Positions 8,853 to 63,263 of a stretch of 64,000 nucleotides of DNA are shown piece by piece. The stretch's first letter is position 1, and every line of letters starts with the position of its first letter. A program made the position numbers and the translations under genes. The DNA is taken from assembly GCA_002434245.1 (NCBI GenBank), contig DJJR01000026.1, positions 62,001 to 126,000 on the forward strand, read 5' to 3'. The notes beneath the pieces were generated by a model that was not told where the DNA came from, ran no database searches, and worked only from the letters and a program-made list of their open reading frames with translations. Origin of the DNA: Pelosinus fermentans. GTDB taxonomy: Bacteria > Bacillota > Negativicutes > DSM-13327.

Positions 8853-8940
8853 AACCGCGAAGATGCGAAGAATAAAAGAGACACGAAGAGAGCCATAAAT
8901 GTTCCTTCGTGTCCTTTGTGTTCTTCGCATCTTCGCGGTT
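8853..8940. repeat. Palindromic intergenic repeat, type A (copy 1)
   Basis: The left arm AACCGCGAAGATGCGAAGAA is mirrored perfectly by TTCTTCGCATCTTCGCGGTT at 8921-8940, and inner parts (ACACGAAG / CTTCGTGT) also pair. T-rich sequence follows the hairpin on both strands. It sits between convergent serS and the minus-strand gene at 8978. The rest of 8747-8977 holds nothing else I can support. Confidence 0.9.
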
Positions 8941-8977
8941 CAAAAGGTTTTTATTATATATTTTTTTAAAAAAAGAT

Positions 8978-9553
8978 TTAAATTCGTACTTCGAAGTTGC
9001 CTTTTATTTTCGATGATGATTTGTTCTTTGCCTGTACAATTTTCTGAGGAGAAGGAGAAGGAGAAGCGGTTGCTGAGGAATTGATTAAATTCAGAAGATC
9101 CTGTTGACTGTCTGCAGAATAATTAAGAATGGTTCGCTGCTTTTGCTGCATGCTCTTCCATAAGCGAAAGCAGACAAGAGAAATGGCAATGAATAATACA
9201 AGCGAAAAGAAGAAGCCGAAACCAAAAGGAGAAGGTTTATTCTTAGCTGTGGATACAGTGGGGGCGGAGGTGGTTTGGGATGAAGTTTCCTGATACGTTC
9301 CTAAAAAAGGTTGTCCAGGGACAGGAGTGTTATCGGCAGAGGAGGGAGAGGCTGCCTTCTTTGTAGCTGCAGGAGGAGGACTAGTCGTTTTGCTTTCCGC
9401 TGGTGTCTTTACAGTTGCTGATTTGCCGGTGTTAATCGAATTGGATGCGGGTGGTGATGAAGGTACATCGGCAGCACTATTATCAGAAGATTTAGGATTC
9501 ACAGTGGGAGGCGTAGGAGGCGTTGGTCTCGTTGGCGGGGTTGGAGTTTGCAT
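8978..9553 (-). CDS. Pro/Ser/Thr-rich single-pass membrane protein, function unknown
   Basis: 191 residues. The first 100 or so are low complexity, starting MQTPTPPTRPTPPTPPT and continuing rich in S, A, T, P and K; then one transmembrane helix (FGFFFSLVLFIAISLVCF, around residues 112-130); then about 60 residues that include a run of K, S and P. There is no N-terminal signal peptide, so topology cannot be fixed from sequence. AAAGGAG is well placed before the ATG. No family is recognised. It could be a linker-like or surface-associated protein; low-complexity composition makes homology claims unsafe. Confidence 0.65.
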   Translation of the reverse strand: MQTPTPPTRPTPPTPPTVNPKSSDNSAADVPSSPPASNSINTGKSATVKTPAESKTTSPPPAATKKAASPSSADNTPVPGQPFLGTYQETSSQTTSAPTVSTAKNKPSPFGFGFFFSLVLFIAISLVCFRLWKSMQQKQRTILNYSADSQQDLLNLINSSATASPSPSPQKIVQAKNKSSSKIKGNFEVRI

Positions 9554-9899
9554 AGCAAAGAAGCTCCTTTCTCATTCATATCTTTCTCTATTGTATCAAA
9601 TATCACCGAAGCTTGTACATCATTAAAGTGCATTGCCGATTAGGAAAATTCCTTGGTTCAATGTGTTCTATGCAGTTTAAAGAACGCGCTCAGAGTAATT
9701 TAGCTATTTTGATCAATCTGCTTTTTATAATTTTCGCTTCTTCGCCTTTCAAAAGGTTTTTATTTTTAGCCCCACAATCATAGGTTTTATTATAGGAATT
9801 ATGTGGTATCTTGTCGAAGTATAAGACTAATCCTTTAGAATCGAGCTGCAGTGCTCCTATATAGAAATACAGAGAGTTAAAGAGCGGAGGTAAAGTGTT
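9554..9899. other. 346-bp divergent intergenic region with a decayed type A half repeat
   Basis: Between the minus-strand Pro-rich gene and the plus-strand EAL gene. At 9733-9761 TTCGCTTCTTCGCCTTTC followed by AAAAGGTTTTTA matches, with changes, the right arm and flank of the type A palindrome; no left arm is found. No clear promoter or other element was recognised in the rest. Confidence 0.5.
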
Positions 9900-12275
9900 T
9901 TGAAAGTAGAGTCGGGCACGTCTATTGCTCAAGAGATTGTTGCTTTAATTTATAATATAAGTGGGTACCCTGTTATGATTTTGGATCAAACGGGGGTACT
10001 TCTTGCTGAGTCTGCTGCTTTGGGATTTGGAGAAAAGTGCAGGCTTTCTGGTGATGAGCATACTAGAAGTTTACAGATGAACACATCTTGTGATTATATA
10101 GAAGAATCTATTTTTTTGGAGGATACCAGAAGGGGTAAAATTGTGATTTGCAGTACTACTGATACTGCAAAAATATTGATTGTGCTGGCGACGGAATTGG
10201 CTGTTCTTTTATGGCGGAAAAATAAGGCTTATCAAAAGTTGAATCATCAAATGGGAGAATATGAGGAATTATTTAATTTGATCCCTGTACAAATTTGGTA
10301 TAAAGATACAAATAATAAAATTATTCGTGTAAATAAGCAGGTGGAAAAAGATATCGGTATTCCCATTCAAGAGTTTGTGGGCAAATCTGCACAGGACTTA
10401 TTTCCGGCCTATTCGGCAAAGTATTATGAGGATGATTTGGCAGTTATACGTTCGGCTGAAGCTAAACTAGGAATTTTGGAACAAATCAATCATGCTAATG
10501 GTGAGAATCGCTGGATCTATACAAGCAAGATCCCAACTAAAAATTGTGATGGCATTGTAACAGGACTTGTTGCCTTGGTAGTTGACATTACAGAAAGTAA
10601 GATGATTGAAAAACAAATGCCGATCTGGGCTAAGATATTTGAAAGCAGCGGTGAGGCGATTTCAGTTACGGATAAAGAGAATCGCTTTGTTGCCGTAAAT
10701 CGCGCCTTTTCTTTAGCTACAGGCTACTCCTCTGATGAAGTCATTGGAAAAGAGCCGAGCCTTTTGAAGTCTGGCTGCCATGATAAGATCTTTTATCAAA
10801 ATATGTGGGCGGCAATTATTCAAACAGGTTCTTGGGAAGGAGAGATCTGGGAGAAGCGAAAAGATGGTGTAATTTATTTAAAATGGCTGCGCATTGATCA
10901 GATTAAAGATGAAGAAGGCAATTTGATTAATTATTTGGCACGATTTACCGATATGAGTGAAAAAAAGGCCGCCGAAGAGCGGATTCATTATTTGGCAAGG
11001 CATGATGCGTTAACGGGGCTAGCCAATCGGGAAGTCTTAGGTAAACAATTAGCAAAAGACATAGAAAGGGCTCGTCATAGCGGCAGCGGCGTAGGAGTTA
11101 TTTCGCTTAATTTGGATCGGTTTAAAAATATTAATGATTCTTTAGGGCATAAAGTGGGGGATGAAGTCTTAAAGGAGCTTGCTGATCGGCTGGAGACCTG
11201 CTCTAAGAGAACAAGTCTAACAGCGCGTTTCGGCGGCGATACCTTTAACTTTATTGTACCAAAGATTTCTCAGAAGGAAGAGATTATAAAAGTAATTCAT
11301 GAAGTCATGAGTGCTTTGGAAAGACCTCTCTTGCATGGTGGATTGGAGTTAATCATTACTGCAAGTATTGGCGTCAGTGTATATCCCGATGATGGAGATA
11401 CGGCAGAAGTGCTGATTCGCAATGCTGATACAGCCATGCATAAGGTGAAGGATAACGGACGTAATTTTTATGAGTTCTTTGAAGCCAATATGAATGAATA
11501 TGCATCGGAACGTCTTATGCTTGAAAATAATTTACGGCGTGCATTGGCAAGAGAAGAATTTGTTTTATTTTATCAACCTCAGGTGGACAGTAAAACAGAA
11601 GCCCTCATTGGAGTGGAGGCTTTGATCCGTTGGATGCGCCCTGATTCTGAAATCATACCGCCGGGAGATTTTATTCCAATTTTAGAAGAGACAGGCCTTA
11701 TTATTCCCATTGGGCAGTGGGTTTTGGCAGAGGCATGTCGGCAGCATAAGGAGTGGATTCAAAAGGGCTTACCGCCAATTCCTATCTCCGTGAACATTTC
11801 TGCCATTCAATTTCAGGAAAAGGAATTCTTGCCGATGCTTTCTGACATTATAAAAGAAAGTGGTATTGAACCAGGATATCTAGATTTGGAGCTAACAGAG
11901 AGCGTTGTCATGCGACAGCCGGAATTTGTTATCAAGCAGCTGGAGTTTATTAAAGAGATGGGAATCAATTTATCTTTAGATGATTTTGGAACCGGGTTTT
12001 CCAGTCTGAGTTATTTGCGCTATTTCCCTCTGGACCGATTGAAAATTGACCAATCTTTTGTACGTGGTTTGTCGACGGATTCGGTGAATGAAGCGATCAT
12101 TGAGGCGGTAGTGGCTTTAGGAAAGAGTCTAAAGATAAAAACCATAGCAGAGGGCGTTGAAACGAAACAAGAATTGGACTTTCTGCGAAAGCTTGAATGC
12201 GATGAGATACAGGGATATTATTTTTCGAAACCCTTACCCAGTGATGATTTTATAAAATGGTTTACCAATCGGTAA
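9900..12275 (+). CDS. Diacid-recognition/PAS/PAS/GGDTF/EAL protein, probable c-di-GMP phosphodiesterase
   Basis: 791 residues from a TTG start at 9900 with GCGGAGG upstream. The N-terminus (IAQEIVALIYNISGYPVMIL) resembles the sugar-diacid recognition domain of CdaR-type regulators. Two PAS domains follow (about 120-235 and 245-355), then a GGDEF domain whose signature reads RFGGDTF, with Glu replaced by Thr, so cyclase activity is doubtful. The C-terminal EAL domain is complete: VEALIRWM, NISAIQF, LELTES, DDFGTGFSS, KIDQSFV and EGVET. The likely job is c-di-GMP breakdown, with the GGDTF domain as a GTP-sensing or structural module; this is inference. It stands alone and is followed by a type B repeat. 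Confidence 0.9.
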   Translation: MKVESGTSIAQEIVALIYNISGYPVMILDQTGVLLAESAALGFGEKCRLSGDEHTRSLQMNTSCDYIEESIFLEDTRRGKIVICSTTDTAKILIVLATELAVLLWRKNKAYQKLNHQMGEYEELFNLIPVQIWYKDTNNKIIRVNKQVEKDIGIPIQEFVGKSAQDLFPAYSAKYYEDDLAVIRSAEAKLGILEQINHANGENRWIYTSKIPTKNCDGIVTGLVALVVDITESKMIEKQMPIWAKIFESSGEAISVTDKENRFVAVNRAFSLATGYSSDEVIGKEPSLLKSGCHDKIFYQNMWAAIIQTGSWEGEIWEKRKDGVIYLKWLRIDQIKDEEGNLINYLARFTDMSEKKAAEERIHYLARHDALTGLANREVLGKQLAKDIERARHSGSGVGVISLNLDRFKNINDSLGHKVGDEVLKELADRLETCSKRTSLTARFGGDTFNFIVPKISQKEEIIKVIHEVMSALERPLLHGGLELIITASIGVSVYPDDGDTAEVLIRNADTAMHKVKDNGRNFYEFFEANMNEYASERLMLENNLRRALAREEFVLFYQPQVDSKTEALIGVEALIRWMRPDSEIIPPGDFIPILEETGLIIPIGQWVLAEACRQHKEWIQKGLPPIPISVNISAIQFQEKEFLPMLSDIIKESGIEPGYLDLELTESVVMRQPEFVIKQLEFIKEMGINLSLDDFGTGFSSLSYLRYFPLDRLKIDQSFVRGLSTDSVNEAIIEAVVALGKSLKIKTIAEGVETKQELDFLRKLECDEIQGYYFSKPLPSDDFIKWFTNR

Positions 12276-12343
12276 AGAAAAGTCTTCAAAAGAGAAGACG
12301 TCTCGGAGAGGATGAAAGCATAAGTTTTAGAGGGAAAAATATT

Positions 12344-12436
12344 GAACACAGAGTGCGCAGAGTATGCAGAGGACACAGAGGGGGATTCTCTCTATCCTTT
12401 CTATTTTTTCTCTGTGTTCTCTGTGCCTCTGCGGTT
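12344..12436. repeat. Palindromic intergenic repeat, type B (copy 2)
   Basis: The left arm has GAACACAGAGTGCGCAGAG and GGACACAGAG; the right arm has CTCTGTGTTCTCTGTGCC and TCTGCGGTT. The arms pair imperfectly around a pyrimidine-rich centre. The arrangement is that of the type A repeat but with GCAGAG in place of GCGAAGA. It lies between the convergent EAL gene and tRNA-Gln. Confidence 0.8.
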
Positions 12437-12465
12437 AAAAACGTCTATGTTTTTTCTTTTCAAAA

Positions 12466-12493
12466 TAATAAAAACCCTGCAATGAATGCAGGG
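12466..12493 (-). terminator. Terminator of tRNA-Gln
   Basis: On the minus strand CCCTGCA pairs with TGCAGGG around a 5-base loop and is followed by a TTTTT run. It lies 38 bp past the CCA end of the tRNA. Confidence 0.8.
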
Positions 12494-12530
12494 TGAATTT
12501 ACATAATAATGTATTGCTTTTGAAATTACA

Positions 12531-12606
12531 TGGCTAGGGCGGCAGGACTCGAACCTGCGGATGCGGGAATCAGAATCCCGTGCCTTACCAGCTTGGCGAC
12601 GCCCCA
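12531..12606 (-). tRNA. tRNA-Gln (anticodon CTG)
   Basis: On the minus strand the acceptor stem TGGGGCG pairs with CGCCCTA (one G-T pair), the anticodon stem is CGGGA/TCCCG with loop TTCTGAT giving anticodon CTG (codon CAG), and the T arm holds GGTTCGAGTCC. The discriminator is G and CCA is encoded. The gene stands alone with its own terminator. Confidence 0.95.
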
Positions 12607-12745
12607 ATGAAATTTCCTATATGCATTATATACTATTTTCTTCAGAATAGCAAATCGTTTTACCCTAGCAGACTGTTCTTTTTTATAATTATGTAGTGTA
12701 GCTGTTGATATCTTAGCAATGTTCTTTCTTCTTGGCAGAAAATCA

Positions 12746-12775
12746 TTGCGGTAATTAGAAAGAATCGTGTAAAAT
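12746..12775 (+). promoter_or_regulatory. Candidate sigma-A promoter for topB
   Basis: TTGCGG (12746-12751) and TAAAAT (12770-12775) are 18 bp apart, about 80 bp before the topB start. Moderate match only. Confidence 0.4.
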
Positions 12776-12855
12776 AAAGGTTCAGGACAGTATAATCTGG
12801 AGCAAGATCAAATTAACTTAATCATAGATTTAAAATAGATGACAGGGAGAGTCGC

Positions 12856-14835
12856 ATGAAATTATTTATTGCAGAGAAACCGAGTATGGCAGCAGAACTT
12901 GCAAAATGCCTGCCTGGCCCTCTCGTTCGCAAAGATGGATATATTGAAACCGGCGGCGGGGTGGTGACTTGGGTATTTGGTCACATTCTTCGTCAAGCGG
13001 AACCGGGAGAATATGATGAAAAATATAAAAAATGGCGGGCTGCAGATTTACCCATTATTCCTGCGGAGTGGAAGCTGTTAGTAGCTGATTCCTGCATGAA
13101 GCAGTTTAATATTATTAAGACTCTCATTGGTAAAGCCGCAGAAATTATTCATGCAGGTGATCCCGACCGTGAGGGTCAATTGCTGGTGGATGAAGTATTA
13201 GGATATACTCATAATGAAAAACCAGTTATGCGTATTCTTGTAAATGCACTGGATGAAAAAAGTATAAAAAAAGCACTTGCAAATTTGCGCAGTAATCAAG
13301 ATTTCTTTAATTTAAATCAATCGGCTTTAGCTCGTTCACGGGCTGATTGGCTTGTTGGAATGAACCTGTCTCGTGCGTTTACATTAGCCGCCCAAAGCGC
13401 TGGTCACGAGATTACATTACCCATCGGTCGGGTTAAGACTCCTACTCTTGCGTTGGTAGTGAGACGGGAGCGGGAAATAAAAAACTTTAAAGCAGCAGAT
13501 TACTTTCTAATTAAAGCAGACATAAAACATGAGAATGGACCATTTAAAGCATCGTGGAAAGCAAAAGACGAACAGCCAGGCAGGGATTCAGAAGGACGTT
13601 TAGTTGATCCTGTTATTGCACAAGCATTGATTGAGAAACTGGAAAAAGCAAAAGAAGACGTTTCTATCGTATCTTGTGATACCAATGAAAAAAAAGAACC
13701 CCAGCGCCTCCCCTTTTCGTTGTCGGCCCTACAGGTTCTGGCAGGAAAAAAGTACGGATATGATCCTCAGGCTGTTTTGACTGGAGTTCAGAATTTATAT
13801 GAAAAGAAACTTACCTCCTATCCCCGTTCGGATTGTGATTTTTTGCCAGAGTCTCAAAAAGCAGATGCCACTGTCATCCTGGCTAATTTACGCAATAGTC
13901 ATCAGGAAGAGCTGGCAGTCTGGTCAGGGAAGGCTGATCTAAAAATTAAGAGCCGTGCCTGGAATGATAAAAAGATTACGGCCCATCATGCGATCATTCC
14001 TACGGAAGTACCCTGTAAAATGAACACATTGCCAGAAATCGAAAGAAATTTATACTTCTTAATTGCTCAGGCTTATGTAGCGCAGTTTTATCCTGTTCAC
14101 GTGTATAATCAGACTCGCGCAGAGCTTAAATATGCAGGTGAAGATTTTGTTGCTAATGGCAGAGTCATCGTGACAATGGGCTGGAAAGAACTGTATGGCG
14201 GTGAAGTCAAAGAAGAAGAGGATGAAGATAGTAAGACTCTGCCTACTATGCAAAAAGGTGATAAGGCTGATTTTATCAGTGCTTCGTTAGAAAAAAAGAC
14301 AACAAAGCCACCAGTACGTTTTACTTCTAGTACGTTGCTGCAGGCTATGAAGGAAATACATAAATATGTTAAGAATCCTGAATTGAAAAAACATCTCAAA
14401 GATGTTTCTGGAATAGGCACAGAGGCCACTCGGGCTTCTATTATCAAAGAACTCACAGTACGGTGTTTTTTAGAAGAAAAGAAAAAATACCTGTATCCTA
14501 CGGAATCGGCTTATCTCCTCATTGATGCATTGCCGGAAGAATTAACCTATCCTGATTCAACAGCCATATGGGAGATTATCTTTAATCGTATGGTAGAGGG
14601 AAAAGCTGAGCTCAATAGCTTTATTGGTCAGCAGACAGAATTTATTACGAGCTTATGTTTAAAGGCCAAAGAAGTTCAGATTGAAAATAAAGATGCAAAT
14701 GTAGTGAAGTGTCCGAAATGTAAGCAGGGGGTATTAAAACTGCGCAATGGCAAGAATGGGGCCTTTTGGGGATGCTCCCGTTTCCCGGAGTGCCGGGGTA
14801 CTTGTAATGACAAAGATGGACAGCCTCAGCTATAA
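12856..14835 (+). CDS. topB: DNA topoisomerase III
   Basis: Type IA topoisomerase that decatenates DNA through a 5'-phosphotyrosine link. 659 residues. The Toprim domain begins MKLFIAEKPSMAAELAK and carries AGDPDREGQLL (metal-binding DxD near residue 99). The catalytic tyrosine is in TSYPRSD at about residue 322. The C-terminus has a four-cysteine zinc finger (CPKCKQG ... WGCSRFPECRGTC). Length and order match the TopB subfamily rather than TopA. Ribosome site CAGGGAGAG precedes the ATG. It stands alone; TopB proteins of this kind can be chromosomal or on plasmids, and nothing mobile is seen here. Confidence 0.95.
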   Translation: MKLFIAEKPSMAAELAKCLPGPLVRKDGYIETGGGVVTWVFGHILRQAEPGEYDEKYKKWRAADLPIIPAEWKLLVADSCMKQFNIIKTLIGKAAEIIHAGDPDREGQLLVDEVLGYTHNEKPVMRILVNALDEKSIKKALANLRSNQDFFNLNQSALARSRADWLVGMNLSRAFTLAAQSAGHEITLPIGRVKTPTLALVVRREREIKNFKAADYFLIKADIKHENGPFKASWKAKDEQPGRDSEGRLVDPVIAQALIEKLEKAKEDVSIVSCDTNEKKEPQRLPFSLSALQVLAGKKYGYDPQAVLTGVQNLYEKKLTSYPRSDCDFLPESQKADATVILANLRNSHQEELAVWSGKADLKIKSRAWNDKKITAHHAIIPTEVPCKMNTLPEIERNLYFLIAQAYVAQFYPVHVYNQTRAELKYAGEDFVANGRVIVTMGWKELYGGEVKEEEDEDSKTLPTMQKGDKADFISASLEKKTTKPPVRFTSSTLLQAMKEIHKYVKNPELKKHLKDVSGIGTEATRASIIKELTVRCFLEEKKKYLYPTESAYLLIDALPEELTYPDSTAIWEIIFNRMVEGKAELNSFIGQQTEFITSLCLKAKEVQIENKDANVVKCPKCKQGVLKLRNGKNGAFWGCSRFPECRGTCNDKDGQPQL

Positions 14836-14946
14836 AAAGACTCGATTCGAGAATATAATAGTCGAATACAAACGATTTTCAAAGAATACTACCATTTTTG
14901 ATCCTTTTATGGTATTATTTTCTTATTGGCATAAGGAGGTAAACAG

Positions 14947-15396
14947 ATGAAGTGGTTTCAGAAAAAGGCTGTTGTACTGATGATATCCTTCTTGGGTTTA
15001 GGGATAGGGCTGTCTGTTGTTCAGGCTGCACCTATACAAAATAGTGACCTCATAAAGGTAACCGTAAATATAACCATTGAGAATCCGGATTATTTCTGGA
15101 AGTACCCTTTTTTAGGAAACGAAATTGATGGCATTCGAATTTCTGGCATGGGACAAAGTTTTTTTATACAGCCAGCTTCAAGCGGTGAAAGAGTTGAATT
15201 TGATGTACCTAAAAACTACCGATTAAAGATTGCTCTTGAATTGCAAAATAATAATGAGACTGTAAAAGAAACTCGTTACTCTACAAAACGAGGCGTTGAT
15301 GACAAGAAAAATACGCTGGAAATCCTTTTAAAAGCACCAGAACCTCAATCGATTATTCTTACTACAGCAGATTTCGAAGAAATACGAGGTAAGTAA
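14947..15396 (+). CDS. Small exported protein, function unknown
   Basis: 149 residues with a clear signal peptide (MKWFQKK then a hydrophobic stretch ending VVQAAP, cleavage near residue 28). The mature part is mainly alternating polar and hydrophobic residues (VTVNITIENPDYFWKYP), suggesting a beta-rich periplasmic or outer-surface protein. No family is recognised. AAGGAGGTAAACAG precedes the ATG. It lies 98 bp before the LuxR-type regulator but no functional link can be shown. Confidence 0.75.
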   Translation: MKWFQKKAVVLMISFLGLGIGLSVVQAAPIQNSDLIKVTVNITIENPDYFWKYPFLGNEIDGIRISGMGQSFFIQPASSGERVEFDVPKNYRLKIALELQNNNETVKETRYSTKRGVDDKKNTLEILLKAPEPQSIILTTADFEEIRGK

Positions 15397-15494
15397 CAAG
15401 GGTTAAGAAGCAATGATTTGATTCATAGATTTCCAAAAATCTTTTTTACTATATAGCGGGATTCGTACATCTAGTTATATAGGGAGGTTCACGT

Positions 15495-16103
15495 ATGAGA
15501 AAAGAAAGAGTACTATTGGTTGATGATGATGGTATAGCTCTATTAGTGCACAGTAAAATGCTGGAACAGCATGCTGAAATTGTTACTGCGGCAAATGCAA
15601 ATGAAGCTTTGGAAATTATAAAAAAGGATAAGGCATTTGCTGTCATTATATCAGATCAATATATGCCGGATATGAATGGGGCCGAACTGCTGCAAATTGT
15701 AGGTGTCATGGTACCGAATATGGTTCGGATCATGATTACTGGTTTTGCAGATTTAGACGTTGCCATGCAAGCGGTGAACTTAGGAAATGTATTTCGTTTC
15801 CTGGTTAAGCCTTGCTGCCAGGAAGACTTAGTGCTGGCCCTTGCTGCTGGACTTGATAAATATCGACAATCTGTAGGCGAAATATCTCAAGAGGCTGCAT
15901 TAACAGAACCATTAACAGAAAGAGAAAGAGAGGTTCTGCGTTTATTAGGTATTGGTTTTACCAGTGGAGAAATTGCCTTAGCTATGGGAATTACCATTGG
16001 TACTGTTAAAACTCATGTGCATCACATTTTTGGCAAATTAGCAGTAAATAATCGGATTAAGGCAGTGGCGAAAGCAAAAAATATGGGACTTATATCCAGG
16101 TAA
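15495..16103 (+). CDS. Response regulator with LuxR-type DNA-binding domain
   Basis: 202 residues. The receiver (residues 1-120) has the acidic pair VDDDG, phospho-Asp54 in ISDQYMPDMNG, Thr in MITGF and Lys in FLVKP. The C-terminus (140-202) is a LuxR/GerE helix-turn-helix: LTEREREVLRLL and TVKTHVHHIFGKL. TATAGGGAGG precedes the ATG. It is followed by a terminator and then, 180 bp on, by the hybrid kinase at 16281, its plausible but unproven partner. The target genes are unknown. Confidence 0.92.
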   Translation: MRKERVLLVDDDGIALLVHSKMLEQHAEIVTAANANEALEIIKKDKAFAVIISDQYMPDMNGAELLQIVGVMVPNMVRIMITGFADLDVAMQAVNLGNVFRFLVKPCCQEDLVLALAAGLDKYRQSVGEISQEAALTEPLTEREREVLRLLGIGFTSGEIALAMGITIGTVKTHVHHIFGKLAVNNRIKAVAKAKNMGLISR

Positions 16104-16110
16104 CATAAGG

Positions 16111-16141
16111 GGAATATCTAAGAAAGATATTCCTATTTTAT
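16111..16141 (+). terminator. Terminator after the LuxR-type regulator
   Basis: GGAATATCT pairs with AGATATTCC around a 5-base loop, followed by TATTTTATTT. It separates this gene from the hybrid kinase. Confidence 0.65.
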
Positions 16142-16280
16142 TTCGCCTTCCTATAATTTTGTGAAAGATGAAATAATATCTTTAAGTTATTGCAAAACTA
16201 TATCTTTTGGCAGATGTGGTTTAGAGGTAAATCATCTATATTATGAATAAGTAGTAATCGTATTTGAGAAGGTGATTTTC

Positions 16281-18848
16281 ATGGAACATATAAATGTGTC
16301 ATTAATACTACTGCTAATTATAGTGGGCATGTCATATGCGATGTCCTTTTATTCTTGGCGATATCGCTTTATATATGGATTATGGCTTTTTTGGAGTGTA
16401 GCTTTTATTGGTATCACATTACAAATTGTCGCGTTCTTATTGTATGAAGGTTTAGATATTGCAATGATAAGTGCTGGTATCGCCCTTTTATGTATTCTAG
16501 TTAGTCTTATTGCGTTTAAGTTCTTTGAGATTGTTCCAGCGGCAAAAAGCTTAGCTGTTGAGAATATGGAGGATGGTATTCTCGTACTTGATACAAAGGA
16601 CCGAATATTGGACATGAATGCCCAGTTGGAGAAAATCTTAGGCATTAAGAAAGTCAATGTTGTAGGGGCCGTTGTGGAAAGAATTGCAGCAACGTGGCTA
16701 GTGGAAGCGATACAAGGCGAAAAGTTTCAAAAATACACGACGATGCTTCAGCAAGGCGAAAGCTATTATGAAGTCAACTCTACGCCTTTGCAGCATCGGG
16801 GAAAAAATTTTGGCAGAGTGATTGTGCTCTGTGATGTTACCAGCCGTATGCTGGCGGAACAACGCTTTCAGCAATTATTGCAGTCAGAAGAAAAATTACT
16901 GCAAACGGAAGCCTTAGCTCATATGATGTTTAACCACCATCAAGCCATGATGATGATTATTGAGAGTAAGACGGGTCATATATTAGAAGCCAATGCAGCA
17001 GCAGAAAATTTCTATGAATCACCCTTAATTGGCTGTCTGATACAAGAATTTATTGAATACCCCTCTGATGAACATGGAGAAAAGAACAGCAGTCAATACG
17101 CAAATGTCGGAGAGTATCAGTTTATGGCAAGGCATGCCTTAGCTTCAGGAGAAGTAAAAGATTTATCTGTGAATCTTACAACGAAAGTGATCGGTGAGAT
17201 GGTATTATCTTTTTTAATTTTAGAAGATTTTACCGAAAAAATGCAGTTGGAAAAAGCGCTGCGGGAAGCAAAAGAGAAAGCTGAAAAAGCAAATCAGGCA
17301 AAGGATGATTTTTTAGCAATTATTAGCCATGAGCTTCGCACACCGATGAATGGTATTTTAGGAATGGCGAAACTGGTGCTAGGGACAAAATTGCAGCCCG
17401 ATCAGCGGGAGTGCTTAGAATTGGTACAGGTTTCAGGAGAAAAACTGCTGGTTTTATTAAATGACTTACTTGATTTTTCAAAAGTTCGGGATGGAAAACT
17501 GGAATTAGAAAATATTTGTTTTTCTCTGCGGGATGTAATGAGTGAATTTCATCGTATCTTAAGAATGAAGGCAAAGAAAAAGGGATTACAGTGTGTGATT
17601 CATATTGCTCAGGATGTACCCGATGGATTGTATGGTGATCCTCGGCGCCTGCAGCAAATTGTAATGAATTTAGCAGATAATGCGGTAAAGTTTACGAAGA
17701 CCGGCTTAGTTTCGATTGCAGTGAATGTTAAGCAGCATCTTGATAATCAGGTGAATTTATTATTTGTTGTACGGGATACGGGAATCGGGATTCCCCCAGA
17801 AAAAATTAATATTATTTTCCATAAATTTACCCAGGTTGACTCTTCCACCACGAGAAAATATGGTGGCACGGGCTTAGGACTTAGTATTGTGAAGCACTTG
17901 GTTGAAATCATGGGTGGCAGAGTATGGGTTGAAAGCAGCATAGACAAAGGCAGTTCTTTTTATTTTACCGTTGCCTTTGAGGTTTGCCAAATGACTTTGG
18001 GCAATCATACATTAGAGCAGCTTAAACAGCCCGAAAGCAGCAAGGAATTGCAACGTATTGAGAAGCTGCAGGTTTTATTAGTCGAGGATGAATTTATCAA
18101 TCAAAAGGTAGCTGTTAAAATGCTGACCAATCAAGGTCACAATGTTACATTAGCCTCCAATGGACAGCAGGCGATAGAATTTTTTAACAAAGAACAATTT
18201 GATATTATTTTTATGGACATACAAATGCCTGAAATGGATGGGGTACAAACGACGGCTGCCATTCGTGATCTAGAAGAACAATGGGCGGATGAGCGGCATA
18301 TTCCGATTGTGGCTATGACAGCTTATGCGATGAAGGGGGACCGTGAACGTTTGATGTCTTGCGGGATGGATGAATATATTAGTAAACCTCTGGATGCTGA
18401 GGTATTAAATAATGTAGTCAGAAAACTATTTTATGGGCGGTATGCAAAGTCTAAGGGGCAGGGGGAAATGGACAAAGAGCCGAGTCAAGTGGCAGCTAAT
18501 CCCTACTTGGATCAGCTTTTGAGCATTTGTCAGGGTGATGTGGATACAGTGAAAGCTGTTATTAGCTGCTTTTTGGACAATGGTACGCAATATATGCGAC
18601 ATATAGAGCAGGCTGTAAGCGAAAAAGATGCCAACCACTTGAAGCTCAGTGCTCATCGCTTAAAAGGTGCAGCAACATATTTCGGAAATCAGACAGTTGT
18701 GGAATACGCAGCTCACCTGGAGCAGATGGGAGATGCAGGTCAGCTAATTGATATTGAGCAGGTCTTTGCCAAGTTGCAAGCAGCTGTTAAAGAATTAGAA
18801 GATGGCCTGCAGCAGGCATGGCGAGAATTACCCAATAGGAAAGAATAA
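16281..18848 (+). CDS. Hybrid sensor histidine kinase (TM-PAS-PAS-HisKA-HATPase-REC-Hpt)
   Basis: 855 residues from the ATG at 16281 (a GTG at 16272 overlaps the GAGAAGG ribosome site, so is less likely). Three N-terminal transmembrane helices (residues 3-80) lead to a PAS domain (about 90-190) and a second PAS-like region (about 215-320). The H-box ISHELRTPMNG has His350; the ATPase domain has N (NLADNAVKF), G1 (DTGIGIP) and G2 (GTGLGLS). The receiver has Asp646 in MDIQMPEMDG; the Hpt domain has His792 in SAHRLKGAA. This is a full four-step phosphorelay chain in one polypeptide, able to pass phosphate to a separate regulator, perhaps the LuxR-type protein just upstream. Confidence 0.94.
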   Translation: MEHINVSLILLLIIVGMSYAMSFYSWRYRFIYGLWLFWSVAFIGITLQIVAFLLYEGLDIAMISAGIALLCILVSLIAFKFFEIVPAAKSLAVENMEDGILVLDTKDRILDMNAQLEKILGIKKVNVVGAVVERIAATWLVEAIQGEKFQKYTTMLQQGESYYEVNSTPLQHRGKNFGRVIVLCDVTSRMLAEQRFQQLLQSEEKLLQTEALAHMMFNHHQAMMMIIESKTGHILEANAAAENFYESPLIGCLIQEFIEYPSDEHGEKNSSQYANVGEYQFMARHALASGEVKDLSVNLTTKVIGEMVLSFLILEDFTEKMQLEKALREAKEKAEKANQAKDDFLAIISHELRTPMNGILGMAKLVLGTKLQPDQRECLELVQVSGEKLLVLLNDLLDFSKVRDGKLELENICFSLRDVMSEFHRILRMKAKKKGLQCVIHIAQDVPDGLYGDPRRLQQIVMNLADNAVKFTKTGLVSIAVNVKQHLDNQVNLLFVVRDTGIGIPPEKINIIFHKFTQVDSSTTRKYGGTGLGLSIVKHLVEIMGGRVWVESSIDKGSSFYFTVAFEVCQMTLGNHTLEQLKQPESSKELQRIEKLQVLLVEDEFINQKVAVKMLTNQGHNVTLASNGQQAIEFFNKEQFDIIFMDIQMPEMDGVQTTAAIRDLEEQWADERHIPIVAMTAYAMKGDRERLMSCGMDEYISKPLDAEVLNNVVRKLFYGRYAKSKGQGEMDKEPSQVAANPYLDQLLSICQGDVDTVKAVISCFLDNGTQYMRHIEQAVSEKDANHLKLSAHRLKGAATYFGNQTVVEYAAHLEQMGDAGQLIDIEQVFAKLQAAVKELEDGLQQAWRELPNRKE

Positions 18849-18850
18849 AA

Positions 18851-18879
18851 AAATACACGGCAGGAGCCGTGTATTTTTT
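18851..18879. terminator. Bidirectional terminator between convergent genes
   Basis: AAATACACGGC and GCCGTGTATTT form a perfect 11-bp stem with loop AGGA, followed by T on the plus strand and preceded by A7, so it can end the kinase transcript and the minus-strand small gene. Confidence 0.85.
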
Positions 18880-18887
18880 CATTGCTT

Positions 18888-19142
18888 TTAGTGATGTACG
18901 GAATCATTTGAAAAAACTTTAAGAATTTCAAAGTTAAGTCTTTGTGTTTCTAATATAGCAGTAATTTTGGCATCCATTCGATATAAGGTGTTGACAATAT
19001 CATCTTGCTGATCCTCTGATAATAAATCAATGTTTGCGTGCAACTTTTGCAATTCCCCTGAAGTTAATTCTTCTAAGCTGTCAAGACGTTTAGTAATATT
19101 CTCCATCGAAACTAATATTTTGTTTAGTATTTCTTCGTTCAT
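18888..19142 (-). CDS. Small coiled-coil protein, function unknown
   Basis: 84 residues, acidic, with heptad-like leucine/isoleucine spacing over most of its length (ILNKILVSMENITKRLDSLE onward) that suggests a coiled coil or helical bundle. No signal peptide, membrane segment or known motif. CAGGGGAATTAT precedes the ATG on the minus strand, so it looks translated. It shares a bidirectional terminator with the hybrid kinase. It lies downstream of the P-II genes but 88 bp away, and no link is evident. Confidence 0.65.
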   Translation of the reverse strand: MNEEILNKILVSMENITKRLDSLEELTSGELQKLHANIDLLSEDQQDDIVNTLYRMDAKITAILETQRLNFEILKVFSNDSVHH

Positions 19143-19230
19143 ATAATTCCCCTGTCTTTATCAATGATATAAATATATGTAATTTTTGGTTGACTTATTA
19201 TACATTTTCCACTGCTGCTGCGTCAAGGCG

Positions 19231-19599
19231 TTATGGGATATCTTTAGGAGCAAGGATAGCGCCAGGCCCTTCTTCTCCTGTACGAATTCGCACTGCGTTT
19301 TCAATAGGATAAATAAAAATCTTACCGTCGCCGATTTTCCCCGTAGAGCAGACTTTCTTTGCAGCTGCCACTACTTTTTCTACGGGAACTTCACATACAA
19401 CAATTTCTATTTTGATTCCGGCTAAAAGATTGATGTTATATTCTCTACCACGGTATATTTCAGTATGACCTTTTTGCAGTCCGCAGCCAAAGACTTGACT
19501 TACAGTCATACCTGTAACTCCGATTGCATTTAATGCTTCTTTCAATTCCTCCAGCTTGCCAGGACGGGTGATAATATCGATTTTGGTCATGATCGACAT
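19231..19599 (-). CDS. P-II family nitrogen regulator (second copy)
   Basis: 122 residues of the GlnB/GlnK family: trimeric sensors of ATP/ADP and 2-oxoglutarate. Visible are the T-loop with RGREYN (Tyr54, at the position of the uridylylated Tyr51 of enterics), the B-loop TGKIGDGKIF and the C-loop RIRTGEEG. AAAGGCGG lies 7 bases before the ATG. It is 81 percent or so alike by eye to the P-II gene upstream but ends in a different tail (GPGAILAPKDIP). A type A palindrome separates the two, so it may be transcribed by read-through or independently. Partner could be AmtB or a nitrogen enzyme. Confidence 0.95.
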   Translation of the reverse strand: MSIMTKIDIITRPGKLEELKEALNAIGVTGMTVSQVFGCGLQKGHTEIYRGREYNINLLAGIKIEIVVCEVPVEKVVAAAKKVCSTGKIGDGKIFIYPIENAVRIRTGEEGPGAILAPKDIP

Positions 19600-19791
19600 G
19601 GTGGCTACCGCCTTTCATCATAATGTAAGAAGCAACGAAGTGAAGATGCTATATATACTGATAATTAGCTATTTGCGGTTAGATTCCTCCTGACCATTGA
19701 TAATAAAGTGAGGAAAAATTCAATTATAATGCATAAAATGAGGGATATTCAGGCAAGACTCTAATAGATAAAATGTGTAAAAAAATATTTT

Positions 19792-19879
19792 GAAACGCGA
19801 AGATGCGAAGAACATGAAGAGCTTATCGTAACCAGATTATTTCTTCGTGTCTTTTAGATTCTTCGCGATCTTCGCGTTT
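19792..19879. repeat. Palindromic intergenic repeat, type A (copy 3)
   Basis: Left arm GAAACGCGAAGATGCGAAGA, right arm TTCGCGATCTTCGCGTTT with inner TCTTCGTGTCTTTTAG. T-rich flanks occur on both strands. It sits between the two minus-strand P-II genes, the only copy found inside a likely transcription unit; the remainder of 19600-19979 shows no gene. Confidence 0.85.
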
Positions 19880-19979
19880 AATTGCTTTTACTTTAGTATA
19901 GCAAGAAAGAACCTGACAGTCGAAACTGTCAGGTTCAAAAGGAGGATTATCGAAAAGAGGAATGTTATTAATCAATGTA

Positions 19980-20351
19980 TTAGGAGTTATCTTCTTGGCG
20001 ATCCATAATGGCAATGTCGCCTTCTTCGCCAGTGCGAATTCTAACGGCATTTTCAATAGGATAAACAAATATTTTACCATCGCCGATTTTACCGGTGCGA
20101 CATACTTTTTTGACAGTTTCAATTACGGTTGTGACAGGAACTTCGCATACTACGATTTCCACTTTTATGCCGGCTAAAAGATTAATATTATATTCTTTGC
20201 CACGGTATACTTCAGTATGACCTTTTTGCAAGCCGCAGCCAAATACCTGGCTTACTGTCATGCCTGTTACACCAATGTCAGCTAAGGCTTCTTTTAATTC
20301 TTCTAATTTACCAGGGCGAGTCACTACATCAATTTTGGTTATTTTTCGCAT
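19980..20351 (-). CDS. glnK: P-II family nitrogen regulator beside amtB
   Basis: 123 residues. Same family as the gene at 19231, with T-loop RGKEYN (Tyr54), TGKIGDGKIF and RIRTGEEG, and tail DIAIMDRQEDNS. It begins 22 bp after the amtB stop with GAAAGGTGG as ribosome site, the conserved amtB-glnK pairing in which the P-II trimer plugs the channel when ammonium is plentiful. Whether Tyr54 is modified in this lineage is not known from sequence. Expression should follow the amtB leader. Confidence 0.95.
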   Translation of the reverse strand: MRKITKIDVVTRPGKLEELKEALADIGVTGMTVSQVFGCGLQKGHTEVYRGKEYNINLLAGIKVEIVVCEVPVTTVIETVKKVCRTGKIGDGKIFVYPIENAVRIRTGEEGDIAIMDRQEDNS

Positions 20352-20373
20352 GAAGGATTACCACCTTTCTGAT

Positions 20374-21804
20374 TTAGTGAGATTTAGTATGTGAGGCTTG
20401 TAAAATTGAACTATTGACTGGCTCTGATTGAGGGGCAGCATGAGAAAAGGCTAGAGGAGAGCCAGCAGTCACATCTTGGTAAGTATAACCGCGTTCACCG
20501 TGTTCCGCAATATCCAGACCAATGTCTTCATGGCTTTCATCAGAACGTACTTGCATGAATATGCTGATGACTTTTAATATCACAAAGGTCATAACAGCTG
20601 CAAAAACCCAGGTAACTGCAACTCCGAATAATTGAGTCCAAACAAGACCAGGATTGCCAAAAAATAATCCATCAGCACCAGCTGGATTTACGGCTGTAGA
20701 AGCGAATAGACCAGTGGCAATTGCGCCCCAAGTACCTCCAATTCCGTGAACGCCAAAGGCATCAAGAGCATCATCATAACCAAGTTTTGTTTTTAGAATA
20801 CTAACAGCAAAGAAACAAATTGCACCGCCAGCTAAACCGATCACAATAGCAGGTATTACACTAACAAAACCGGCAGCAGGAGTGATGGCCACAAGACCGG
20901 CCACACAACCGCTTGCTGCGCCTAGTATAGTGGGTTTGCCATGATAGAGCCATTCGGTTAAAACCCAAGCGAGTGTAGCAGCGGCTGCAGCTACGTGAGT
21001 AACAACAAAAGCGCTGACTGCTAAGCCACTTGCAGACAATGCACTTCCGGCATTAAATCCGAACCAGCCGAACCAGAGAAGAGAAGCACCGATAAGGGTC
21101 ATAGGCAAATGGTGAGGCAGCATAATTTCCGTACCGTATCCCTTGCGTTTGCCTATAAACAAAGCAACTACTAAACCCGAAATACCAGAGGAAATATGAA
21201 CAACCGTTCCGCCGGCGAAATCCAAGATGCCCATTTCCCGCATCCAGCCACCGACGCCCCATACCCAGTGTGCAAGAGGGTCATACACAACGGTAGCCCA
21301 AATGACAATAAATACAGCGAAAGCAGAAAATCTCATACGCTCAGCAAAAGATCCTGTAATTAAAGCAGCAGTAATAATAGCGAACATACATTGAAAAACC
21401 ATAAAAAGCAGATGAGGTATCGTTGCAGCATAGTCAGGATTTGGCAATTGACCAACATCGTTTAAGCCGAACCAGGCTAAGCTGCCAATGATATGATTGA
21501 TATCAGGCCCAAAAGCGAGGGAATAGCCCCATAGTACCCATTGTACAGTAATAAGTCCGATGATAAAAAAACTTTGCATAAGAGTGCTCAGTACGTTTTT
21601 AGTTCTAACCATACCACCATAAAATAAGGCTAAGCCAGGTGTCATAAGCATTACTAGTGCAGCACTTAGCAGAATGAAAGTAGTATCACCTGTGTCGATG
21701 GCAGCAACCTCGGCGGCGGCTTCTGCGCCATCTGCAAAGGCTGTTCCGAGACTAAGCAGCATCATAAGGACAGAAGTGCTCATAATAGTCAGTAGCTTTT
21801 TCAT
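20374..21804 (-). CDS. amtB: Ammonium transporter AmtB
   Basis: 476 residues from the ATG at 21804, which has GGGAGG seven bases upstream; the longer frame to 21864 enters the leader hairpins and is rejected. A signal peptide (MKKLLTIMSTSVLMM..., ending near AFADGA) precedes eleven transmembrane helices. Family marks include FYGGMVR, the twin-His pore residues in VVHISSG and FGVHGIGGTWG, and the DPLAHWVWG segment. The cytoplasmic tail is about 60 residues. It is first in the amtB-glnK pair and is preceded by a strong promoter and a structured leader RNA (see those entries). Confidence 0.97.
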   Translation of the reverse strand: MKKLLTIMSTSVLMMLLSLGTAFADGAEAAAEVAAIDTGDTTFILLSAALVMLMTPGLALFYGGMVRTKNVLSTLMQSFFIIGLITVQWVLWGYSLAFGPDINHIIGSLAWFGLNDVGQLPNPDYAATIPHLLFMVFQCMFAIITAALITGSFAERMRFSAFAVFIVIWATVVYDPLAHWVWGVGGWMREMGILDFAGGTVVHISSGISGLVVALFIGKRKGYGTEIMLPHHLPMTLIGASLLWFGWFGFNAGSALSASGLAVSAFVVTHVAAAAATLAWVLTEWLYHGKPTILGAASGCVAGLVAITPAAGFVSVIPAIVIGLAGGAICFFAVSILKTKLGYDDALDAFGVHGIGGTWGAIATGLFASTAVNPAGADGLFFGNPGLVWTQLFGVAVTWVFAAVMTFVILKVISIFMQVRSDESHEDIGLDIAEHGERGYTYQDVTAGSPLAFSHAAPQSEPVNSSILQASHTKSH

Positions 21805-21865
21805 GTTAAAACCTCCCATGATTAAATTGGATCGTAAGATATAGTATTTTATACTTTTAGGCAAA

Positions 21866-21962
21866 CAAAAAGGCGCCTAAAGGTGGTAAGACCTTTAGGA
21901 CGCCATTGTCCCTAATAGACAGTAAAGGCCTCCGCGAGTATTTTGCGAAGGCATCATTGCCT
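21866..21962 (-). promoter_or_regulatory. ANTAR-type dual hairpin overlapping a terminator, amtB leader
   Basis: Read on the minus strand. Hairpin P1 (21962-21949) is AGGC, six-base loop AATGAT, GCCT. Hairpin P2 (21915-21895) is built on GGAC, loop AATGGC, GTCC. Both loops have A at position 1 and G at position 4, the pattern recognised by ANTAR antiterminators. A terminator (21904-21872, GGCG...CCTAAAGGT with ACCTTTAGGCGCC) followed by TTTTT shares the 3' strand of P2, so P2 and the terminator are mutually exclusive. A third hairpin (21952-21928, GCCTTCGC with GCGGAGGC) competes with P1. Seen directly; the ANTAR reading rests on published features of EutV/NasR-type targets. Confidence 0.82.
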
Positions 21963-21986
21963 ATTTCGTATAAAATTTATAAATGA

Positions 21987-22015
21987 ATTATATCAATGTT
22001 TTATAGCCATGTCAA
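21987..22015 (-). promoter_or_regulatory. Strong sigma-A promoter of amtB
   Basis: On the minus strand TTGACA (22015-22010), 17 bp, TATAAT (21992-21987): both boxes are consensus. Transcription should start near 21980, giving a leader of about 175 nt that contains the dual hairpin. Confidence 0.85.
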
Positions 22016-22233
22016 TAAAGAAACGCAAAATAAAAATCCGAACAAAAAACGTATATTGCTATATAAAATTCGATAAAAATAGGTTATAATAGTTTCTGGA
22101 TTTGTAAAAGAGTAAAATACAAGTCTATTTTTACTGTTATATTATAATGGAAGCTTAATCATAAAGATTCTATTTCGTCAAGCTTGGCGCCAGCGTTTTT
22201 TTACGTAAATTATGGATGAGAAGGAGCAAGGTA

Positions 22234-23625: not shown

Positions 23626-23642
23626 TAATATAAAAAAACAAT

Positions 23643-23736
23643 GAACCGCGAAGGCGCGAAGAAATGTAAGGACACGAAGGAATAATATGATATTTATTCT
23701 TCCTGTTCTTTAGTATTCTTCGCATCTTCGCGGTTC
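23643..23736. repeat. Palindromic intergenic repeat, type A (copy 4)
   Basis: Left arm GAACCGCGAAGGCGCGAAGA and inner GGACACGAAGGA; right arm TTCTTCGCATCTTCGCGG then TTC. Long A- and T-runs flank it. Between same-strand genes at 22234 and 24035. Confidence 0.85.
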
Positions 23737-23909
23737 AAAATGTTTTATGCTTTAAAAAACGCATAAATAGAAAGCACTTTCCTTCCCGTTATGGATTTGA
23801 TTCACAAGCTGAACCCCAGCCTTGCAAGGTTACGTGAAAAAATAGACAGAATTCATTGAAAAAAGCTATAAGCTAGATAGCCTTTTGTTATAGTGAAAGA
23901 GGGAGAAAA

Positions 23910-24056
23910 ATGATGATTGGTGAAGATTTAAGCAGTAAAAATAGATTACATCGCCTGTCAGCGGGAGTGAATGTTATTTATGAATATGTTATTGTTATAG
24001 AGAAGAGAGAGGAAGAGACGGAGGAACATAAAAAATGCAAAATGAAACAGCGTTAA
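23910..24056 (+). CDS. Possible 48-residue small protein upstream of ndh
   Basis: An open frame with GAGGGAGAAAA directly before ATGATG. It encodes MMIGEDLSSKNRLHRLSAGV followed by NVIYEYVIVIE and a charged tail (EKREEETEEHKKCKMKQR). It overlaps the NDH-2 start by 22 bp in another frame, so it could be a coupled leader peptide, but it may be chance. No homologue is recognised. If real it would place ndh under translational coupling. Confidence 0.3.
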   Translation: MMIGEDLSSKNRLHRLSAGVNVIYEYVIVIEKREEETEEHKKCKMKQR

Positions 24057-25297: not shown

Positions 25298-25334
25298 GAA
25301 AATCTAAGTTTCTTTAAAGAAAATAAAACATTTT

Positions 25335-25424
25335 GAAACGCGAAGACGCGAAGAGTAGGAAGGACACGAAGGGAATTATACAATATTCCTTAGCGTTCTT
25401 CACACCTTCGTGCCTTCGCGTTTC
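25335..25424. repeat. Palindromic intergenic repeat, type A (copy 5)
   Basis: Left arm GAAACGCGAAGACGCGAAGA with inner GGACACGAAGGG; right arm CCTTCGTGCCTTCGCGTTTC. The flanks are AACATTTT before and AATTGTTTTTTT after. The remainder of 25298-25627 has only a loose direct repeat, TTCCAATGAACC (25490 region) and TTCCATTGAACC (25531 region), of unknown meaning. Confidence 0.85.
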
Positions 25425-25627
25425 AATTGTTTTTTTCTTTTTTAATTTCATGCATAAATCACAGAGAATAAGAGGGCAAAATAGCTATTTCCAATGAACC
25501 CTGATTCCTTTCTGATTATCGACTAATTTATTCCATTGAACCATTTTTTGTTTCCCGTTAGTAGTACTTGAGGTATGGTATAAGTGGAATCTTAAAGAGT
25601 ATTCAAAAAATAAGGAGGAGGTTTATT

Positions 25628-27430: not shown

Positions 27431-27447
27431 AGAGAATATAAAAAGGT

Positions 27448-27483
27448 AAATAAGCTCCGCTGGTTCGGGGCTTATTTTTTTTG
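27448..27483 (+). terminator. Terminator after cstA
   Basis: AAATAAGC pairs with GCTTATTT around a GC-rich loop (CCGCTGGTTCGGG can extend the stem) and runs into eight T. Confidence 0.8.
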
Positions 27484-27514
27484 CTAGAATTTATAAAGTT
27501 ATATAAAAAAACAG

Positions 27515-27598
27515 CGAACCGCGAAGGGCGCGAAGAATGCAAAGAACACGAAGGAATTTTATGGATATATTCTTCAAATCTTCGTATCTTCGCGGTTC
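27515..27598. repeat. Palindromic intergenic repeat, type A (copy 6)
   Basis: Left arm GAACCGCGAAGGGCGCGAAG with inner GAACACGAAGGAA; right arm TTCAAATCTTCGTATCTTCG then CGGTTC. A-run before and after. A type B half copy follows within 25 bp. Confidence 0.85.
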
Positions 27599-27621
27599 AA
27601 AAAAAAATTTCCATCGTTATC

Positions 27622-27653
27622 TTTTCTCTGTGCGCTCTGCGCCTCTGCGGTTC
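27622..27653 (+). repeat. Type B half repeat
   Basis: TTTTCTCTGTGCGCTCTGCG followed by CCTCTGCGGTTC is the right arm of the type B palindrome; no left arm is present. It lies directly after a full type A copy, so both types can sit side by side. Together they fill 27431-27750. Confidence 0.75.
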
Positions 27654-27750
27654 CTTTTCTGTTTTGGCTTTTCGCATATTGCATAGCCGATGTGATTTAT
27701 ATATAATAAGTTGGATAAAGGATGGTCGGTTCTAAGGGGGAATAGGCAAA

Positions 27751-55541: not shown

Positions 55542-55577
55542 GCGAAGCCTTTGTATCTTCGCGTCTTCGCGGTTCAA
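55542..55577 (+). repeat. Type A half repeat
   Basis: TATCTTCGCGTCTTCGCGG followed by TTCAAAATGTTTTTT is the right arm and flank of the type A palindrome; only a short GCGAAG remains upstream, able to pair with CTTCGC. Between same-strand genes. Confidence 0.75.
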
Positions 55578-56644: not shown

Positions 56645-56732
56645 GAACGCAGAGGACACAGAGTCGCTTAAGAGCACAGAGGTTTTTAACCTTATCTATT
56701 TTTTCTCAATGTTCTCTGCGCCTCTGCGGTTC
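56645..56732. repeat. Palindromic intergenic repeat, type B (copy)
   Basis: Left arm GAACGCAGAGGACACAGAG plus GAGCACAGAGG; right arm TTCTCAATGTTCTCTGCGCC then TCTGCGGTTC. It lies after the YitT terminator, before the DegS-like gene. Confidence 0.8.
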
Positions 56733-60133: not shown

Positions 60134-60150
60134 AAAAGGAGGCGTTAGGG

Positions 60151-62304: not shown

Positions 62305-62369
62305 AGTCTCAGCTTATTGAAAATATAAATTTTATAAACCACAAAGGCATAATGCCGCAAAGAATGATT

Positions 62370-62455
62370 GAAACGCAGAGATGCAGAGTGCGCTGAGGGG
62401 TATTCTCTAACCCTATTAATTATCTTTTCTCTGTGTTCTCTGCGCCTCTGCGGTG
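62370..62455. repeat. Palindromic intergenic repeat, type B (copy)
   Basis: Left arm GAAACGCAGAGATGCAGAG plus GCGCTGAGG; right arm TTTTCTCTGTGTTCTCTGCG then CCTCTGCGGTG. Just upstream, 62337-62362 (AAACCACAAAGGCATAATGC) resembles a third arm type. It fills most of 62305-62609, which has no gene. Confidence 0.75.
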
Positions 62456-63134: not shown

Positions 63135-63157
63135 TTCAGGTAACGGATGGTTACTAT

Positions 63158-63199
63158 AAAAGGTAGAAACTATTAAATTATATAGTTTCTACCTTTTTT
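63158..63199 (+). terminator. Terminator after the guanylate-kinase-like gene
   Basis: AAAGGTAGAAACTAT pairs perfectly with ATAGTTTCTACCTTT around 8 bases, then TTT. Confidence 0.88.
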
Positions 63200-63230
63200 A
63201 CGAAGAATAGAAAGTATGCTTTCTTATCTA

Positions 63231-63263
63231 TTCTTTCTCTGTACTCTCTGCATCTCTGCGGTT
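63231..63263 (+). repeat. Type B half repeat
   Basis: TTCTTTCTCTGTACTCTCTG followed by CATCTCTGCGGTT matches the right arm of the type B palindrome; no left arm. Between terminator and the MATE gene. Confidence 0.7.

Follow-up and report, generated by a model that had tools for sequence, protein, structure and literature searches.

What are the palindromes that recur between the genes of Pelosinus fermentans, and does a gene answer to them? We addressed this question in a 64,000-nucleotide stretch of one genome (the window; G000:C4:62001-126000), taken from an assembly of 4.55 Mb in 82 contigs that is 83.5% complete. The original prediction described eight full palindromes in two parallel arm types. 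All eight were recovered at the predicted positions and in the two types as claimed, which we name by their six-base units (A, GCGAAG; B, GCAGAG); a third type (C, ACAAAG), common in relatives and present in the window as a remnant, was added. In the genome of the window, the 10-base arm ends CTTCGCGGTT (A) and CTCTGCGGTT (B) occur 113 and 158 times, compared with 10 and 2 times when their letters are reversed, and the type C ends (CTTTGTGGTT) occur 54 times. The explanation we find rather probable is a repeat of the REPIN–RAYT kind (repetitive extragenic palindrome doublets forming hairpins, with their associated tyrosine transposases) that is served by an unrelated cognate protein, GxxExxY, which would promote the spread of its own arm type by the full mechanism set out below.

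Thirteen genomes were searched for GxxExxY, comprising eight from Pelosinus (G000–G007, including that of the window) and five more distant ones. One match each was found in G002 and G004 (both P. fermentans, G004 being JBW45), in G005, and in G006 (Pelosinus sp. UFO1). In all four, the gene occupies the same locus between cytidylyltransferase-like and glycosyltransferase-9 (heptosyltransferase) genes (Pfam, G002), where inverted arms enclose it; these are of type A in G002, of type B in both G004 and G005, and of type C in G006. No GxxExxY gene was detected in G000 (83.5% complete), G001 (100% complete), G003, G007, or the five more distant genomes. The glycosyltransferase neighbor has no close orthologue in G000, its long matches there reaching 36–38% identity, and the contig sought by means of this neighbor (G000:C42) holds other genes and no GxxExxY.

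The G002 and G004 proteins score 137.4 and 149 bits against TIGR04256 (cut-off 35), and those of G005 and G006 also exceed the cut-off, placing the partner in the GxxExxY/PDDEXK_3 family (TIGR04256, PF13366), which is named for a motif; 7,492 of 7,542 candidate proteins matched at E 1e-6 or better. Six residues (E39, D74, E84, K86, Q98, and Y102) are invariant across 25 GxxExxY sequences, with E84/K86 and Q98/Y102 lying in what we take to be the ExK and QxxxY motifs. Membership of the PD-(D/E)XK superfamily is supported by the sequence family, by the fold, and by conserved residues that are candidates for catalysis, and GxxExxY is, by these predictions, a small, uncharacterized, nuclease-like protein of that family (Cas4/lambda-exonuclease-like). 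The likeness to Cas4, lambda-exonuclease, and RecB-type nucleases lies in the fold and the invariant residues, with modest structural scores; those families are not known to have a first helix that reads units. A sequence search of solved structures gave no match at E up to 1, and neither PADLOC nor PHROGs held a family for the two GxxExxY proteins examined. One query against phages returned no match, one against plasmids matched 8 of 72,556 records, and none of the 54 viral-contig stretches checked was confirmed.

Arms of this kind surround GxxExxY genes well beyond Pelosinus. Among 592 matched stretches on genome contigs, the 80 loci most similar to the query fall into 15 named phyla, with four loci unplaced. 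At 70 of these loci, the inverted repeats flanking the gene score above the 99th percentile of 800 control windows taken from within the loci, and at 14 they surpass the highest control. The arms follow a simple grammar, AACC and then tandem [GA]CNNAG units (279 matches versus 19 in reversed sequence), and unit-built arms stand on both sides of the gene at 52 loci, on one side at 18, and on neither at 10. Where both arms are present, they have the same commonest unit in 46 of 52 cases (9.1 on average in shuffles, 19 at most). In the rest of the locus, gene-free units equal the unit of the gene at a rate of 0.33 versus 0.10 across 36 loci (maximum of 10,000 shuffles, 0.27), and at 15 of the 36 the commonest gene-free unit is that of the gene. 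The Pelosinus palindromes are members of a widespread bacterial repeat family.

The unit also covaries with the protein. The 80 loci and two Pelosinus proteins gave 81 sequences without a stop, 71 of which could be labelled by unit (those from G005 and G006 were not included), and association was scored over 86 variable columns, with residues numbered as in the G002 protein. The fourth base of the unit associates most strongly with residue 15 (z 27.3), followed by residue 12 (z 14.9), and no other column scores above 8.1; the third base associates most strongly with residue 12 (z 16.2), followed by residue 15 (z 8.7), and no other column scores above 4.6; for the first base, the highest value is 6.8, at residue 46. 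Shuffling labels within phyla only left z at 28.2 for base 4 with residue 15 and at 10.7 for base 3 with residue 12. With units denoted by bases 3 and 4, Asp12 and Ala15 accompany CA in 17 of 19 loci and Thr15 accompanies AG in 18 of 22. Among AA and GA units, Glu12 is present in 19 of 27 loci and the Glu12/Ala15 pair in 15, with four of the 18 AA loci carrying Asn12 and Ser15 instead. Both residues lie in the first helix (9–29) of the structural model. In 56 loci, the upstream arm is separated from the residue-12 codon by 9 nt or more (median 42), so residues 12 and 15 are not simply translated arm.

Many GxxExxY proteins do start upstream, within the arm, and bear its translation (NRQDAK, NRRGAE, and similar). 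These extensions were used to label 87 further proteins, three with mixed extensions having been set aside; this set is mostly cyanobacterial and B-type, is unevenly sampled, and includes one protein of the first set (P0159, from locus L105). The simple residue-15 and residue-12 rules hold in 82 and 86 of the 87, respectively. Thr15 is found in 73 of 78 proteins whose fourth base is G and in none of the other nine, and Asp12 in four of five CA proteins and none of the remaining 82. By eye, three Pelosinus proteins fit the residue-15 rule: G002 (Glu12, Ala15; type A), G004 (Ala12, Thr15; type B), and G006 (Gly12, Ala15; type C). The earlier suggestion that the arms co-evolve is strongly supported, with the arm unit changing in step with residues 12 and 15 of GxxExxY.

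Shared sites were compared over 495 kb each of G002 and G004, in which flanks are mostly 90–97% identical. Strictly defined intact palindromes number 26 A, 7 B, and 0 C in G002 and 4 A, 22 B, and 0 C in G004; under looser arm criteria, the counts become 24 A, 8 B, and 15 C versus 6 A, 26 B, and 16 C. By the looser scan, orthologous flanks could be matched in G004 for 75 of the 85 sites of G002, of which 66 are occupied there and nine are armless; with 170–179 gaps of at least 100 bp, chance co-occupancy is estimated at 35–40%, against the 88% seen. The 66 shared sites carry the same type set in 23 cases, overlapping sets in 12, and disjoint sets in 31. Among 50 single-type pairs (G002, G004), we counted 13 A,B, 10 A,C, 6 C,B, 9 C,C, 8 B,B, and 4 A,A, and none that were B,A, C,A, or B,C. 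All 29 swapped pairs therefore have A in G002, with its A-type GxxExxY, or B in G004, with its B-type GxxExxY, or both.

The swaps involve more than the arms. Armless intergenic blocks have a median identity of 0.93 (4 of 40 below 0.7) versus 0.43 for full elements (23 of 28 below 0.7). The comparison of interiors took in 22 of the 26 A elements and 19 of the 22 B elements, chosen by length, and 61.5% of 231 pairs of non-orthologous A copies in G002 and 49.1% of 171 such B pairs in G004 exceeded the 99th percentile of shuffles. Since the interiors of non-orthologous copies are homologous, whole elements have spread, not arms alone. Elements also sit within one another: the genome of the window contains A(B)A nested copies (L002, L004), and among 32 mixed-type clusters from G002, G004, and the window (some orthologous and not all independent), 25 have a lone arm of a different type beside a full palindrome. 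In 22 of the 25, the orientation is as if the full palindrome lay inside the other type (right arm kept in 19, left in three).

Given the gene in the loop, the matching arms, the two-residue correlation, and the type-swapped shared sites, all established by sequence comparison, we propose that the window palindromes are gene-free copies of a widespread element of which, in those Pelosinus genomes where the gene was found, a single copy carries GxxExxY in its loop. Helix 1 of the protein would read its own unit, residue 15 the fourth base and residue 12 the third; the covariation suggests such arm recognition and binding. By analogy with its family, GxxExxY may then act on the extruded or single-stranded palindrome, cutting the arm as hairpin or cruciform DNA, and repair synthesis after cutting would copy the element to another site. 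Its own arm type would thereby spread to 3′ intergenic sites, often ones already bearing a palindrome; the old palindrome would be lost, and an inherited site would change type. These features suggest that the element is selfish and overwrites its own variants.

Several observations weigh against this proposal. Palindromes persist in G000, G001, G003, and G007, in which no GxxExxY gene was found, and across bacteria 10 of the 80 loci lack grammar arms and 10 lack clear inverted repeats. The G005 protein (Ala12, Ile15, with B arms) breaks the residue-15 rule. The unit partly follows the protein tree (26 changes versus a shuffle mean of 39.4 and minimum of 34), and a paired test with two to three pairs on supported branches, too few for the purpose, was not significant, although nearly every pairing either agreed in direction or showed no difference. 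We infer the polarity of the swaps, that is, the older state, from two genomes only, and eight of the 22 inside-pointing clusters combine a full C with a lone A or B arm, so nesting gives no order of types and no proof that new enters old. Arm ends of types A/B/C number 19/26/46 in G001, 110/91/140 in G002, 25/31/73 in G003, 34/129/213 in G004, 4/42/113 in G005, and 2/36/129 in G006. As type C ends outnumber the others even in genomes with an A-type or B-type gene, the gene's type is expanded relative to the genus and is not the majority. Neither a clean target-site duplication nor movement was seen.

The preservation of flanks while elements are replaced, the single plan shared by the types, and the lack of a fixed type order in nesting would also fit gene conversion alone through homeologous recombination, with the protein binding arms to serve the cell, for instance by resolving cruciforms, and having no part in driving spread. 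In the alignments, though, interiors and the bases just outside change along with the arms, and the swapped type is the arm type of the protein in both genomes; we consider this account unlikely, while granting it a real chance. It is harder still to credit the idea that these are ordinary REPINs whose movement is due to RAYT-like Y1 transposases encoded in the same genomes. Y1_Tnp matches do exist in all eight Pelosinus genomes, yet no A, B, or C arm was present in the 2–3 kb fetched around each of ten RAYT-like genes (30,615 bases; 10 of the 35 matches in G000–G007; L025, L027, L028, L030, L031, L035, and L039–L042), and the consensus around A, B, and C arms contains no conserved GTAG or CGTC tag. 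When 13 Y1_Tnp loci were scanned for type A and type B ends, a single B-like end turned up, about 1.1 kb from an IS200-like gene (L021). With these results, RAYT was rejected as the partner, and its role here seems scarcely credible.

A further account takes up the proposal in the original prediction that each type A copy may act as a bidirectional terminator: the palindromes would be selected as terminators or messenger RNA 3′ stabilizers, host use would spread the types, and GxxExxY would be a passenger. Placement agrees with this to a degree. Of the sites that lie in gaps, only three of 70 in G002 and three of 63 in G004 are in divergent ones (13.5% and 15.4% expected), tandem sites are nearer the 3′ end in 39 of 58 and 38 of 54 cases, the elements fold into strong hairpins, and, by eye, other hairpins occupy some sites where relatives lack the element. 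In the window, all ten merged sites follow the 3′ end of a gene in the open reading frame list read by eye, nine of ten lie in gaps of at least 100 bp by automatic gene calling, and all eight tandem-gap sites are closer to the stop codon upstream than to the start codon downstream. The copies are mostly intergenic, but the claim that all of them lie between genes is not proven in relatives, since 15 of 85 sites in G002 and 14 of 77 in G004 fall within a predicted gene or short gap over the longer stretches. On the other side, an ordinary terminator-like hairpin already stands between the stop codon and the element at two of six window sites (8501–28500), alignments show further such preceding hairpins, and a passenger protein is not expected to follow the arm unit at two helix residues. 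We regard the account as quite improbable; a terminator role is possible as a secondary, compatible function, one that is not needed and gives no account of the arm–protein matching. Separately, a recurring GACTTGGC–AAGCCAAGTC hairpin is found at gene 3′ ends in G004, G005, and G006, at the sites orthologous to window positions 8853 and 27515, and looks like a separate repeated family of terminator-like hairpins.

In favoring a GxxExxY-served element, we retain part of the earlier classification as a non-autonomous REP/REPIN- or MITE-like repeat (MITE, miniature inverted-repeat transposable element). It was right in kind, given dispersed homologous copies, strain-variable sites, and a partner protein, but the elements are not REPINs. 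Two sources on REPIN–RAYT systems (PMC3116915, PMC8049555) describe features shared with the present elements: short extragenic palindromes, built from inverted repeats and dispersed in many copies; a partner gene, present once, that is bordered by these repeats; several parallel types; and insertion into or next to existing copies. A REPIN carries a GTAG or CGTC tag at one repeat end, according to PMC3733652; here, there is no conserved tag, the arms are built of 6-base units, the partner belongs to the PD-(D/E)XK family instead of the Y1 tyrosine transposases, its gene sits within the palindrome loop, and shared sites change type. The element works like REPIN–RAYT, yet lacks the tag and, at the ten RAYT-like loci examined of 35 Y1_Tnp matches, RAYT adjacency. 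As with MITEs, small inverted-repeat copies lacking a gene exist alongside one that has it, with the differences that the partner is not a DDE transposase and no target-site duplication was seen (the near-empty counterpart of window site 56645 is not clean). In the open-access literature, we found no link of GxxExxY, PDDEXK_3, or PF13366 to palindromic arms or a unit code, no occurrence of the arm strings, and no Pelosinus palindromic-repeat work related to these elements; broader searches led to work on REP, REPIN, and MITE elements or to nothing.

A second candidate partner, the four-helix-bundle protein S23 (PF05635), was rejected, being found in none of the 13 genomes (eight of Pelosinus) and having flanks of a different grammar elsewhere. 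S23 genes do occur in 31 of 33 searched genomes having GxxExxY, and 19 of 30 (L156–L185) have flanking inverted repeats above control level, many built of roughly 7-base units (e.g., GTCAGGA, GTAGGCA). S23 genes between inverted unit arrays are a possible parallel system.

The individual features of the window are collected in Table 1. Full copies are mostly 70–105 bp long. Nine RNA folds covering the eight palindromes had energies between −30.4 and −61.5 kcal/mol, with z between −3.8 and −11.7; seven were never equalled in 200 shuffles, and the other two were equalled by two and one. Of the predicted shared plan, the inner motif holds in part, with exact GGACACGAAG/GGACACAGAG in five of eight copies, on one strand only, and missing at 19792, 27515, and 62370. 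An Rfam scan returned a tRNA as its sole match at gathering level. At site 56645, the G004 flanks are about 95% identical, and the element is absent, as are 34 and 15 bp of flank.

Table 1. Palindromic elements and remnants in the window, with the state of orthologous sites where compared
Feature	Position	Strand	Remarks
Full type A palindrome (GCGAAG units)	8853..8940	.	G002 also type A; G004 has ordinary hairpin here
Full type B palindrome	12344..12436	.	Orthologous site type A in G002, type C in G004
Full type A palindrome	19792..19878	.	Lies between two P-II genes; G004: C left arm and B right arm
Full type A palindrome	23643..23735	.	18 nt past a stop codon
Full type A palindrome	25335..25424	.	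Type A in G002 and G004; hairpins of a different kind in G001 and G003
Full type A palindrome	27515..27597	.	
Half type B element, right arm only, adjoining type A copy	27614..27652	+	
Half type A element, right arm	55548..55574	+	
Full type B palindrome	56645..56731	.	Absent in G004
Type C left-arm remnant, immediately 5′ of type B element	62337..62360	+	
Full type B palindrome	62370..62455	.	G004 also type B; G002 type A
Half type B element, right arm	63225..63263	+	Full type B in G004

Other repeats were noted alongside these. A repeat, GTCATTGCGAG ... GAAGCAATC, lies inside type A loops (L004 1480–1830 and some G002 stretches), indicating that different palindrome families nest in each other, and many type C left arms in G002, G004, G005, and G006 hold a small inserted palindrome (AATGCCGC ... 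GCGGCA). Window positions 28461–28516 form a near-perfect 26-bp inverted repeat with a 4-nt loop; G001 has a shorter hairpin, and G002 and G004 hold about 7.4 kb at this point instead. The type A palindrome between P-II genes belongs to a row of two P-II genes and an ammonium transporter (19231–21864).

Together, these findings offer a role for thousands of uncharacterized GxxExxY proteins and may explain why CTCTGCGGTT-like repeats occur in the genomes of environmental bacteria. We see an even chance that they reflect an undescribed form of DNA spread, in which a Cas4-like PD-(D/E)XK protein with a two-residue helix code reads the tandem units of palindromic arms and re-types genomes site by site, driving copies of its own type to sites held by other palindromes, a principle that the S23 parallel may share. 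The two-residue rule provides a testable prediction of arm preference, and the type-swapped sites would then stand as a record of competition among repeats inside a genome.

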